Part shown: positions 11,272 to 17,598 of the stretch, in pieces
How positions within the stretch are numbered: position 1 is the stretch's first letter
Layout: each line of letters starts with the position of its first letter
Source of the DNA: Anoxybacter fermentans
GTDB lineage: Bacteria > Bacillota > Halanaerobiia > DY22613
Direction: 5' to 3'
NCBI RefSeq assembly: GCF_003991135.1
Contig: NZ_CP016379.1
Coordinates: 2,170,001 to 2,234,000, forward strand
Length of the DNA: 64,000 nucleotides
Translations under genes and position numbers: made by a program
The notes under the pieces: generated by a model
Database searches by the model: none
What the model was told of the DNA's origin: nothing
Seen by the model: only the letters and a program-made list of their open reading frames with translations

Positions 11272-11428
11272 ACCCCATCCTCCTTTTCTCTATCCACAAT
11301 TATAATCTATTTTCGAAGGAGAATATAATTATACCATTTTTGACTACTAATTTCCAGACCTAAAATAAAATTTCTCTAGAAAATTCCTATATTTTTAAAC
11401 ATGAAGATAGTTGTTGGATGATATAATC

Positions 11429-11456
11429 ACCAGAAATCAACCACGAGCATATAATA
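11429..11456 (+). promoter_or_regulatory. Sigma-K-like promoter before the three-paralogue cluster
   Basis: ACC at 11429-11431 and CATATAATA at 11448-11456 are 16 bp apart, matching the published sigma-K pattern (AC, 16-17 bp, CATAnnnTA). The start would fall ~15 bp upstream of the GGGAGGTG ribosome-binding site. Sigma-K drives mother-cell spore-coat genes. This is a pattern match only. Confidence 0.45.
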
Positions 11457-11486
11457 ATTAAAGATTCAATCGGGAGGTGTACAGTG

Positions 11487-12443
11487 ATGGGGTGCTGCAA
11501 CAAACATAATTCCTTTTTCCGTAAAAGTCAAAATAATGAATCTATTGATTATAAAAAATGTCTTGAACTTCTGACTAATCAAAAAGATGCAATGGGTTTT
11601 TTAAAAATTCTTTGTAATGCAGCCAGTATTACCCTATCCGATGATAAAAACAAAAAAAATGCCGAACCAGGATTACAATGTGTAATTGTACCTATTTTGA
11701 GTCTGTGTCAGGAGATCAACATATTTGATTTAAGTGAAAAAATTTTAGCCAAAATGTTGAAATGTACTTTTGCCAGTATCTTTGGGCGTCTAGGTCCCGA
11801 ATTGTATCAACAGGTTTATAATGAATATGAAATTTTTTTTAAAGAGGAAGAAGGTCTGGATTTTTCCACTTTCAGCAGCTTATTTGAAAAACAAATGAGG
11901 CGTCTTTTTCATATCTACTGCTCCTTTGAATGTAATCCTATAGGATTTTATCATTTTCTAAATTCAAAAGAAGAATTAGAAGGTATCAAATTTTATAAAG
12001 GAGATCAAGTAAAAAGTTATTTACCCCTGATCGCTTATATTACTAAAGTTAAATTTTTAGAAGAACTTTCAGAAGAATTTACTAAAGCTGAGTTCGCTCT
12101 CTGTCAGAAATTTTTACGGATGGAGATTGATCTGGTTATTCTTCTCAACAGAATCACAGAACTTGCCACAAACACCAGAGGTGGAATTTCGGGAATAACA
12201 GAAGCATTGCGCAGAGTTGCTATAGGAAATGGAACCCAATTTTTTGAAAAAGGCGACTTTGATGATCTCTTTGAAGCAACAGAAGAAGTAGCAGATATAA
12301 TTGAAAAACTGGCAAAACTCTATCGTCAACGATTCGAAGTCTTTAAAGAAGTAAATAAAACTCTAATCTGCAGCCGTCCACAACCACCGGTCAAAGCTCC
12401 TATACGTGAAATTCCAACCCTAACACCAAGAGTTATCTTTTAA
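11487..12443 (+). CDS. Unknown protein, paralogue 1 of 3
   Basis: 318 residues from ATG 11487 behind GGGAGGTG, starting MGCCNKHNSF. I do not recognise the family. It shares with the two downstream genes an N-terminal block (LCQEINIFDLSEKILAKML, then a Cys), a helical middle, a conserved Cys before a helix (FALCQKFLRMEIDLVIL), and a C-terminal block: a G-x-x-x-I-x-x-A-L/A segment, then an acidic FEKGDFDDLFEATEEVADII, then AKLYRQRFEVF and a terminal Cys in LICSRPQPP. No signal peptide or membrane segment. Mostly alpha-helical, cytoplasmic. The sigma-K-like promoter and repeated cysteines suggest, but do not prove, a late-sporulation or coat protein. Confidence 0.75.
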   Translation: MGCCNKHNSFFRKSQNNESIDYKKCLELLTNQKDAMGFLKILCNAASITLSDDKNKKNAEPGLQCVIVPILSLCQEINIFDLSEKILAKMLKCTFASIFGRLGPELYQQVYNEYEIFFKEEEGLDFSTFSSLFEKQMRRLFHIYCSFECNPIGFYHFLNSKEELEGIKFYKGDQVKSYLPLIAYITKVKFLEELSEEFTKAEFALCQKFLRMEIDLVILLNRITELATNTRGGISGITEALRRVAIGNGTQFFEKGDFDDLFEATEEVADIIEKLAKLYRQRFEVFKEVNKTLICSRPQPPVKAPIREIPTLTPRVIF

Positions 12444-12461
12444 TGAAAGGGGAGGTACATA

Positions 12462-13424
12462 ATGCCCGAAAGGGATAATCAATCACCACCTCGTCCGAAA
12501 ATTTTTTCAGACGAATTTATTGCTCAAATTGGGAAAGATCTGGCAAACCAGATTATAGACCAGATTTGTCAAGGATTAACTCAAATGGTCCCATCTCAAA
12601 AACCCACCTCCCTCTGTTTAGAGCTACTGGTCTTTGAACTGGATGAAGATATTCTTAAAAAATTAGTGAAATGCGTATTTAATCAGTTCAACCCTGTACA
12701 AATCACCCAGAAAATTCTGGAAATAATAAATAGAGTAAACAATGTAATGAATAAAAATGAAAATCTCACCTATAAAAATAAAAAAAAATTCCAGATTGAT
12801 AAGTTTAACCTACTTAGAAAAGTTAACAGAAAAATCAAAGATCTAAAAAACACCCTTTTCCGCACCTGTACTAATCTTCGGGATAATATTTTTAAAGAAA
12901 TTCTTTTACGACCAAAACAAATTCCTTCTGATAAATTGACAGACATTTCTTTTATAATAGAACATGTAATTATTCAACACTTTCGCCAATTTTTAATAGA
13001 TCAATACGATAATTTTGCCCTAAAACTCTGTAATAAAGTTAGCTGCATATTCTCTGATCTGGAATTTCTGGCTGAACAGATTAAACAGATCACAATTAAT
13101 TTCCCCTCGTCAGAAGTTGGAATCATTGAAATTGCTGATGCTGCAGCCACTGTTGCAGAAGCTTTCTTCAGCGAAGAAGATGATTTTAATAAGATATTTG
13201 ACGCTGTAGATGAAGTTGCAGAGTTAATTGAAGATCTGGCTCAATTTTACCAGAAAAAATTAGACCAACTAGAGAAACTTCTCGCTCTCTCCACCTCCGG
13301 CTGTCCTGTTCCTATTGAAGCCGTTGAAACCCTACCAACCATTCCAGAAGTTCCACCTCCTTCACCTATATTTTCAATAGTAGAAATTCCGGGTACAGCC
13401 ACTACACCCTTTTTCTCACCTTAA
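12462..13424 (+). CDS. Unknown protein, paralogue 2 of 3
   Basis: 320 residues, 18 bp after paralogue 1 with its own GGGGAGGT, so probably in the same operon. It begins MPERDNQSPPRPK, a proline/charged lead similar to paralogue 3. Shared blocks: CLELLVFELDEDILKKLVKC (about 47-66), LCNKVSCIFSDLEFLAEQI (about 194-212), FFSEEDDFNKIFDAVDEVAE (about 238-257), LAQFYQKKLDQLEKLLAL, and the Cys-Pro motif SGCPVP. After that comes a ~45-residue proline-rich tail. Lysine/asparagine-rich helices fill the middle. Function unknown. Confidence 0.75.
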   Translation: MPERDNQSPPRPKIFSDEFIAQIGKDLANQIIDQICQGLTQMVPSQKPTSLCLELLVFELDEDILKKLVKCVFNQFNPVQITQKILEIINRVNNVMNKNENLTYKNKKKFQIDKFNLLRKVNRKIKDLKNTLFRTCTNLRDNIFKEILLRPKQIPSDKLTDISFIIEHVIIQHFRQFLIDQYDNFALKLCNKVSCIFSDLEFLAEQIKQITINFPSSEVGIIEIADAAATVAEAFFSEEDDFNKIFDAVDEVAELIEDLAQFYQKKLDQLEKLLALSTSGCPVPIEAVETLPTIPEVPPPSPIFSIVEIPGTATTPFFSP

Positions 13425-13475
13425 AAGCCTTCTCCTAAAGAGGGTCAGGTTGTTGAAAAAGGGGAGGTGCACATA

Positions 13476-13647
13476 ACTTGCCCCCACAGAGGAATAGAAA
13501 AACTAAATATAATTTCTTCCACTACCGTACGCTCCGCCATCCCGGCTGCGCGTCCTTAAAAGTCAAGGCTTCCGCCCTCCTGGCTTCAGCCTTGACTTAT
13601 ACGCTTCAGAAATTATATTTAGTTTTTGTGGCAGTGCCCGGGCAAGT
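13476..13647. repeat. Second type of long palindromic element (172 nt)
   Basis: Outer arms ACTTGCCC (13476-13483) and GGGCAAGT (13640-13647), a perfect 20-bp inverted repeat (AAAAACTAAATATAATTTCT at 13498-13517 with its complement at 13608-13627), and an inner hairpin AAGTCAAGGCT/AGCCTTGACTT (13560-13570 with 13588-13598). Its sequence is unrelated to the cloverleaf family. It directly follows GGGGAGGTGCACATAA, which resembles the ribosome-binding site and start of paralogue 2. It occupies most of the 336-bp gap between paralogues 2 and 3. Seen once in this window. Confidence 0.75.
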
Positions 13648-13678
13648 CTCTAAAGAAAGAAAAGTTTGTCAACAAGCT

Positions 13679-13706
13679 CAACCTTCTCCTTAAAGAAGGT
13701 TTTTTA
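13679..13706 (+). terminator. Terminator between paralogues 2 and 3
   Basis: AACCTTCT/AGAAGGTT stem followed by six T residues. A degenerate look-alike (GCCTTCTCCTAAAGAGGGTC) lies at 13428-13447, just after the paralogue 2 stop. Confidence 0.75.
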
Positions 13707-13759
13707 TGTGATAGAGTTCAAAAAACTTAAATATACATAATATAAGAGGTGATATAAAT

Positions 13760-14845
13760 ATGAAAAATAATGATAACAATAAAGGCCAATCACCACCTCC
13801 TGAACAGCAATATCCCGGCCAGGATAAGAAAGAAAAAAACTTTAAACTCACCTCCAAAAAAGAAATTAATGCTACCCTGGAAATGGTGATTCGCAATTTA
13901 GAACAACTGACAAATAATAATAAAGATGATAGAAAAGATAATAATCAAAATAATAAAACACCTTATAACGGGGATAATGATAAGAATTGTAACTGCTATA
14001 ACAACATTTTATCCAGGCCAGAAGTCGATACCTTTCTAATCTGTGTAGATCTCTTCATTTTTGAATTAGACGAAAAAATAGTGGAAAAGTTACTTCTTTG
14101 TGCTATTTTAAGTCTTAGTCTGGAAAAATTTTTAAAGCATTTTAAATCTAATTTTATTCCTTTCCCATCTTCCTCTATGGAAAAATTAGAGAAACAACTG
14201 GAAAAAAAAGCTGCAAACATCTATAATCAGTTTCTTTTACAAGTGATGAACGGCATTCAAACAGCGGAAAACAAGAAAGATTATTTAAAAAAACTTTTTC
14301 AATCCCTAAACCTCTGCTGTAATAATAACGAAAATCTTTATGATCTTTTAACTGCAAACCTACAACATATCATAGACCAAAAAGATGAATCTACCCAAAA
14401 TTTTCAGGAAATTCAGCAACAATTGGAACAATGTATTAAGAATAATGCTATGGTCTTTCTCTATCAGAATTTTACTTCAAAATTAATAGAATTTCAAAAG
14501 GCGGTAGGTAATAAAGTAGTATGTATTGAAGAAGATTTGAGATTTCTATCAGATGAAATTGTTAAATTGACAGGAGGAAATAAAGATGGCAATACAGGTA
14601 ATGGAGGCTTACCTAAAATTGCAGAAGCCTTGAAAAATATCACCTCCGCCCGTTTTGCAGAAGATGATGATTTTGATGAAATATTTGATGCAGCAGAAGA
14701 AATTGCCGATGCTGTAGAAGCATTAGCAGAAATTTACAAGGATCGTTTGAAAGTACTTAGAGCTCTACTTCCCTTTGCCATATGTCCACGTCTTCCTTTT
14801 CAACCCGAAAAAAAACCTGATAACCAGTACAAAACTGACCCATAA
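13760..14845 (+). CDS. Unknown protein, paralogue 3 of 3
   Basis: 361 residues from the ATG at 13760 behind AAGAGGTGATATAA. The N-terminus is rich in Asn, Lys, Gln and Pro (GQSPPPEQQYPGQDKK), then a low-complexity Asn/Asp/Lys stretch to about residue 75. Shared blocks follow: FLICVDLFIFELDEKIVEKL then Cys (about 90-113), GNKVVCIEEDLRFLSDEIVK, RFAEDDDFDEIFDAAEEIAD (about 297-316), LAEIYKDRLKVLRALLPF and the terminal FAICPRLPF. CATAATATA upstream (13736-13744) fits a sigma-K -10 box but has no clear -35. Function unknown. Confidence 0.75.
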   Translation: MKNNDNNKGQSPPPEQQYPGQDKKEKNFKLTSKKEINATLEMVIRNLEQLTNNNKDDRKDNNQNNKTPYNGDNDKNCNCYNNILSRPEVDTFLICVDLFIFELDEKIVEKLLLCAILSLSLEKFLKHFKSNFIPFPSSSMEKLEKQLEKKAANIYNQFLLQVMNGIQTAENKKDYLKKLFQSLNLCCNNNENLYDLLTANLQHIIDQKDESTQNFQEIQQQLEQCIKNNAMVFLYQNFTSKLIEFQKAVGNKVVCIEEDLRFLSDEIVKLTGGNKDGNTGNGGLPKIAEALKNITSARFAEDDDFDEIFDAAEEIADAVEALAEIYKDRLKVLRALLPFAICPRLPFQPEKKPDNQYKTDP

Positions 14846-15045: not shown

Positions 15046-15243
15046 ATGGTGAAAAATAAATCAAAATCCATCAAGGGAATAAAACGGGCCAGAAAAATCC
15101 ATGATATGGAAACTGCAAGTATTCTTGAACATGAGGACGCTTTTGCCATGAATGAACATCTAACCGACCCAAAGCAATCCATTCCTCGCCCCCGTAGTGA
15201 CCTTCCCAAAAATAAACATCATGGATCAATTCATGAAAGTTAA
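15046..15243 (+). CDS. Small charged protein of unknown function
   Basis: 65 residues behind a strong AAAAAAAGGAGG at good spacing. Highly charged, with a basic N-terminal third (NKSKSIKGIKRARKI) and a hydrophilic C-terminus ending KNKHHGSIHES; no cysteine and no membrane segment. The small size, strong ribosome-binding site and position after the three-paralogue cluster would suit a small spore protein, but I recognise no SASP signature. The 200 bp before it hold no clear housekeeping promoter. Confidence 0.6.
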   Translation: MVKNKSKSIKGIKRARKIHDMETASILEHEDAFAMNEHLTDPKQSIPRPRSDLPKNKHHGSIHES

Positions 15244-15336: not shown

Positions 15337-15365
15337 TTGACATTTTCAGTTTTCGCATTTATAAT
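15337..15365 (+). promoter_or_regulatory. Consensus sigma-A promoter of diguanylate cyclase gene
   Basis: TTGACA at 15337-15342 and TATAAT at 15360-15365, spacer 17 bp, 60 bp before the start codon. Confidence 0.85.
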
Positions 15366-16857: not shown

Positions 16858-17523
16858 TTACTCCCAACGGATAATTCCTCCATCAATCCCAACATAAACT
16901 TCCGGTACTTTCCCCATAATGGTCACTTCGGTTACAGGTACCTGGGTGTTTACCTGTATTTTTTTATGCAAAAAAGGTACTACTATCCGAACCTCAGCTA
17001 TCACATGCATATAAATCTTATGCCTGGTCTGATTAATTCCCGCTGTTTCAAAAGTATCCAGAATCTGTGGTGGCCTAACAATTCCAATAGGAACCATCTG
17101 GACACTCAAGCTGGGTCCTAAAGCTGCTAAAACCTGAATTCCCAGAGCTTGAGCAATGGGTATCCGGATTTCTGTTTCTCTCAGTTTTTTTAGATTTTGC
17201 TGAATGGTCATATTCACTTCTGATATAAATTCATTAACAAGCTGTAAATTCGGCTGCATCAGGATAATATCACCCTGATGATTAGTCTGGTAGTGAATCA
17301 AATCAGTATATTGCAAAGTCCTGGCATGTTGATAGACAGAACGGCTGATAGCATCTGTGACCATCTGAACTGCTTTTTCTTCAGCAATAGCCAAAAAAAT
17401 CGGGCGTAAGAAAGATTCGATCATTAACGTTACTGCAGCACCTAAAAATCCGGAAATCAAAAATATAATAATTATAAATTTAAATAACCTATGGCCCGTT
17501 TTATTCCAGTAAGGTCTATACAT
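16858..17523 (-). CDS. yunB: Sporulation protein YunB
   Basis: Membrane-anchored sporulation protein of the YunB family, in B. subtilis a mother-cell sigma-E gene. One N-terminal transmembrane helix (about 14-36 of the chosen protein), then an extracellular domain with conserved AISRSVY, QGDIILMQPN and RIPIAQALG. I chose the ATG at 17523 (MYRPYWNKTGHR), preceded by TTGGGGTG. The longer frame reaching 17598 would run through the tyrS terminator hairpin. 221 residues, close to the family norm (~250). It lies just downstream of tyrS on the same strand, beyond the terminator. Confidence 0.85.
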   Translation of the reverse strand: MYRPYWNKTGHRLFKFIIIIFLISGFLGAAVTLMIESFLRPIFLAIAEEKAVQMVTDAISRSVYQHARTLQYTDLIHYQTNHQGDIILMQPNLQLVNEFISEVNMTIQQNLKKLRETEIRIPIAQALGIQVLAALGPSLSVQMVPIGIVRPPQILDTFETAGINQTRHKIYMHVIAEVRIVVPFLHKKIQVNTQVPVTEVTIMGKVPEVYVGIDGGIIRWE

Positions 17524-17570
17524 AATAAAACACCCCAATCCTATCTTATGTAATTGGAGTGTTAAATGTG

Positions 17571-17598
17571 AAAAAAGGGAGCCATTTATGACTCCCAT
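17571..17598 (-). terminator. Terminator of tyrS
   Basis: On the minus strand GGGAGTCATAAATGGCTCCC is followed by TTTTTTC. It separates tyrS from yunB and rules out the upstream yunB start. Confidence 0.85.

Follow-up and report, generated by a model that had tools for sequence, protein, structure and literature searches.

Three consecutive plus-strand genes (A, B and C) in the 64,000-nucleotide stretch of DNA analysed here (the window, to whose positions coordinates refer unless a contig is named) probably encode lineage-specific spore-envelope proteins, coat or exosporium-like, that are made in the mother cell late in sporulation. The paralogy of the three, their orphan status and the sigma-K class of the promoter before the first gene were computed; that the proteins lie in the spore envelope and are cross-linked through Cys is what we infer. 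The coat or crust role is proposed on the combination of sigma-K class, Cys content, low-complexity ends, tandem paralogy and narrow distribution.

Gene A (11484..12443; 319 aa, 11 Cys) begins at GTG 11484 or ATG 11487, behind the Shine-Dalgarno (SD) sequence GGGAGGTG (11472..11479). Gene B (12462..13424; 320 aa, 7 Cys) follows after a gap of 18 nt and ends in a Pro-rich tail, and gene C (13760..14845; 361 aa, 9 Cys) has an Asn-rich N-terminal region; B has its own SD, and a good SD precedes each of the three. Both the open reading frames and their relationship are as originally predicted: a search of the genome with C recovers B (E=3e-17), A (1e-11) and no other convincing match, and judged by these searches and the alignment, A, B and C are diverged tandem paralogues. 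Invariant in the alignment is a pair of Cys 19 positions apart (Cys-x18-Cys) around FxLxExIxxK, in a block C-x5-FxLxExIxxKxxxC that places the two residues at C75/C94 in A, C52/C71 in B and C95/C114 in C. The original prediction had described this block as FELDE ending in Cys, which is present in all three proteins, although A reads FDLSE rather than FELDE, and it had overlooked the first Cys, which all three also carry. The acidic C-terminal block that it reported is common to the three (EKGDFDDLFEATEEVAD, EEDDFNKIFDAVDEVAE and EDDDFDEIFDAAEEIAD; consensus E-x-x-D-F-x-x-x-F-x-A-x-x-E-x-A). The terminal Cys-Pro motif is retained as an invariant Cys near the C-terminus, but in A the Pro does not directly follow (CSRP), and the mid-protein Cys said to be shared corresponds to no invariant alignment column. 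Shorter matches link pairs of the proteins, LC[QN]K in A and B and NKV[SV]C in B and C. By composition the three contain 2.2-3.4% Cys and no Trp, and they are all-helical by prediction. AlphaFold2 models built from the three paralogues as an alignment are likewise helical, at poor pLDDT values (38 for full-length C, 56 for B's C-terminal domain) that put them at low confidence, below the quality needed for a fold search.

All library and genome searches run agree with the view that this is an unrecognised family. Nothing in Pfam or NCBIfam comes near a curated cut-off for A, B or C, and no known coat family in these two libraries matches the trio above its cut-off; since coat proteins are a functional class made up of many unrelated families, a failed family match does not exclude a coat role. 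PHROGs gave a single weak match, to a family of unknown function (E=0.014), and PDB sequences gave weak matches to coiled segments only, neither of which was taken as homology. Two weak partial matches of C in PADLOC (Cas10 and Cas2; 16 bits; E about 0.001-0.002) were taken as chance. Among 40 related genomes, a profile built from the trio detected no relative. With the C-terminal profile, no convincing match turned up in the class (59 genomes, the genome itself and 58 others), and the full profile found weak local matches only in a 398-genome sample of the phylum (397 others), the class and phylum matches (E 0.0002-0.1) lying mostly within long ORFs of other kinds and covering part of the profile. 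No relative of the trio was found in two scans of a contig set of 84,980 species, in viral contigs, in phages or in plasmids, nor any match to it by tblastn against phages.

The genomic slot was compared with that of a sister genus, the sole other member of the family compared. Gene order is kept there on both sides (creatininase-like, FtsA-like, HAD, GGDEF, YunB and penicillin-binding protein genes), and between the HAD and GGDEF genes an amino-acid ABC transporter replaces the trio. This replacement, together with the lack of detected homologues, marks the trio as lineage-restricted and the slot as variable. The GC content of the three genes (0.32-0.35) is like that of the neighbouring GGDEF gene (0.33), and so gives no compositional sign of recent import.

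The assignment to sporulation comes from the promoter of A. The sequence CACCAGAAATCAACCACGAGCATATAATA at 11428..11456 (+) has AC at -35, a spacing of 17 nt and CATANNNTA at -10, so that the sigma-K-like promoter of the original prediction, here read as CAC-N17-CATATAATA, is an exact consensus match with 17 nt after AC, and is backed by genome-wide evidence. Counts of the motif within the window alone are near chance, and the test was therefore made across the genome by position. The pattern MAC-N17-CATANNNTA has 76 genomic copies and its reversed form, used as a control, has 67. A copy was scored as proximal when an ORF of 60 aa or longer, with an SD in front of it, starts 5-100 nt downstream, which is true of 15/76 copies of the motif, that of A among them, and 0/67 of the reversed form (Fisher p=4e-5); among copies not inside an ORF of 100 aa or longer, the corresponding figures are 14/28 and 0/13. 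As the reversed pattern equals the motif in base content without reproducing the context of a promoter region, and SDs were recognised by a simple string rule, it is the identity of the downstream genes and not the p-value alone that carries the argument. Family searches place sigK, dpaA, spoVK, gin, yunB, ylmC/ymxH and a SipL/SPOCS gene among the other 14 motif-led genes; the remaining ones encode a PRK06851-like ATPase, a DUF6385 protein, proteins that fall in no family and a single ABC substrate-binding protein. The last of these looks vegetative and may be a chance match, so the motif is imperfectly specific. The yabG gene carries an N16 form of the motif, 37 nt before its start.

The genome encodes both SigE and an intact SigK ORF (341 bits, cut-off 298.65). 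SigK reads GISRSY and SigE reads GISQSY; at this residue sigma-E has Gln and sigma-K has Arg, which go with ATA and AC, respectively, at -35 (PMC3789822). The score above cut-off and the Arg together indicate that the genome's SigK is of the AC-reading kind. Sigma-K controls dpaA, yabG and sigK P2 in C. difficile, the last with AC at -35 and CATATAAT at -10 (PMC3789822), and in B. subtilis spoVK is transcribed from a sigma-K promoter (PMC517825). The promoter of A thus belongs to a class that is active here as a sporulation promoter, most likely that of sigma-K, and that may overlap in part with sigma-E. No strong sigma-A promoter precedes A or C, regional matches being only modestly above shuffles.

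Late-sporulation control is therefore well supported for A, and reaches B through the 18-nt gap: B has no promoter of its own, and its closeness to A means that the two are probably co-transcribed. The promoter proposed for C does not hold up. The regulon pattern (AC and CATANNNTA at 16-17 nt before an SD-led gene) is found at A and not at C, and no recognisable sporulation promoter was found upstream of C. The CATAATATA box (13736..13744, +), originally put forward as its promoter, is not credible as a sigma-K promoter; no spacing from 14 to 19 places an AC upstream of it, and it abuts the SD AGAGGTG (13745-13751), inside which transcription, starting about 7 nt downstream, would have to begin.

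Two features separate B from C. One is a palindromic repeat some 236 bp long (13445..13681), which the original prediction did not mention; it is interspersed through the genome in about 40 substantial copies, mostly 75-93% identical. It is followed by an intrinsic-terminator-like hairpin (13680-13701) and a T run (together 13680..13705, +). That the repeat is a relic derived from the two transposase elements in the window was considered and rejected, as the ends of those elements (GGGGCTGTCCCAAAAGT) do not match those of the repeat. Among the repeat copies examined (L010-L020), five (L012, L014, L017, L018 and L019) have a terminator-like hairpin on both sides, nearly duplicated, which suggests an element that inserts at terminators and duplicates them.

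Under the spore-envelope reading, sigma-K would transcribe A and B as one unit in the mother cell late in sporulation, with C as a third paralogue that may be read through the repeat or separately. The products, helical, Cys-bearing, low-complexity-tailed and confined to this lineage, would assemble into the outer spore envelope, where the Cys-x18-Cys pair and the terminal Cys would be available for disulphide cross-links and the Asn- or Pro-rich ends might form exposed or linker segments. Many sigma-K genes encode coat-associated proteins (PMC517825), and coat proteins have a narrow and complex distribution, with unidentified ones expected in other Firmicutes (PMC3533761). As a functional class, the sigma-K-dependent coat and exosporium proteins of Bacillus and Clostridioides resemble the trio in promoter class (AC at -35, CATANNNTA at -10), in bearing Cys and low-complexity ends, and in occurring as paralogous sets of narrow range; they differ in that no sequence homology to any of them is detectable. 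A more specific proposal, which we put forward tentatively, is that A, B and C form a previously undescribed, genus-restricted helical family that would build a lineage-specific coat or exosporium layer, cross-linked by Cys-x18-Cys disulphides, in a spore-former of the Halanaerobiia type.

Control by sigma-K is also compatible with proteins that act in the mother-cell cytoplasm as non-structural assembly, cortex or lysis factors, an alternative that we consider unlikely, though it is the one to be taken most seriously. The promoter class drives enzymes and regulators in this genome (dpaA, spoVK, gin and yabG), and dpaA, spoVK and yabG, as non-coat genes, also count against the envelope reading, as do the terminator-like hairpin and repeat that part C from B, the failure to find a sporulation promoter at C, the poor structure models and the imperfect specificity of the motif. 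The trio is helical and its Cys content is moderate rather than extreme, as such factors might be, whereas their arrangement as tandem paralogues, their low-complexity tails and their extreme restriction to one lineage fit structural envelope proteins better than conserved assembly factors (PMC3533761).

An accessory cassette, mobile or defence-like and unrelated to sporulation, would make the sigma-K-like match coincidental. The ABC transporter in the HAD-GGDEF slot of the sister genus, the repeat inside the cluster and the near-chance count of the motif in the window are all in keeping with this, but the strong enrichment of the SD-proximal motif class for sporulation genes, with none in the control, makes coincidence improbable; searches of phages and plasmids gave no relative of the trio, those of PHROGs and PADLOC gave no convincing match, and no recombinase gene adjoins it. 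Least probable of all, and very unlikely in our view, is that the three are relatives of a known helical family, for example FlgN-like chaperones, that have diverged beyond profile detection. A helical segment of A resembles FlgN (PF05130; E=0.043), but at 14.7 bits the match is far under the curated cut-off of 30.5, it spans 44 residues of coiled segment, and it is absent in B and C; other weak family matches are equally scattered, and no flagellar gene is seen in the neighbourhood of the trio.

The spore-envelope reading bears on a wider difficulty. Very little is known of what the coat is made of beyond Bacillus and Clostridioides, where fast-changing coat proteins defeat homology. A promoter checked against sporulation genes of the same genome links this orphan family with both a cell type and a stage, and the approach can be used to list more candidate spore-envelope genes in such genomes.

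Several further observations were made, most of them at other motif-led genes. At L121 (G000:C1:3269203-3273231, from position 1501 onwards) a 568-aa protein has four SipL/SPOCS stretches (PF12673), with a 124-aa orphan downstream, each gene having a separate sigma-K-type promoter; this locus is likely a spore-envelope cluster. Like A, the SipL/SPOCS gene has a promoter of sigma-K type, which lies 31 nt before its start, but its SPOCS domains belong to a curated family of spore-formers and bear no sequence relation to A, B or C. Another candidate spore-envelope protein (L107, G000:C1:2353155-2357183), also behind a sigma-K-type promoter, is an orphan of 570 aa that has helical repeats and a tail rich in aromatic residues. 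The DUF6385 protein (PF19912; L089, G000:C1:1818545-1822573) stands behind a promoter of the same type, which suggests a sporulation role. For YunB, in the window at 16858-17598 (-), the motif (17542-17570) overlaps the longest ORF, and the true start is probably an internal ATG (MYRPYWNK...) 18 nt after it, giving 221 aa. Downstream of C, a basic 65-aa ORF with a strong SD (15046-15243, +) has no family match in Pfam, NCBIfam or PHROGs and no relative in the sister-genus stretches examined. The GGDEF gene beyond it is preceded by a perfect TTGACA-17-TATAAT promoter (15337-15365, +).
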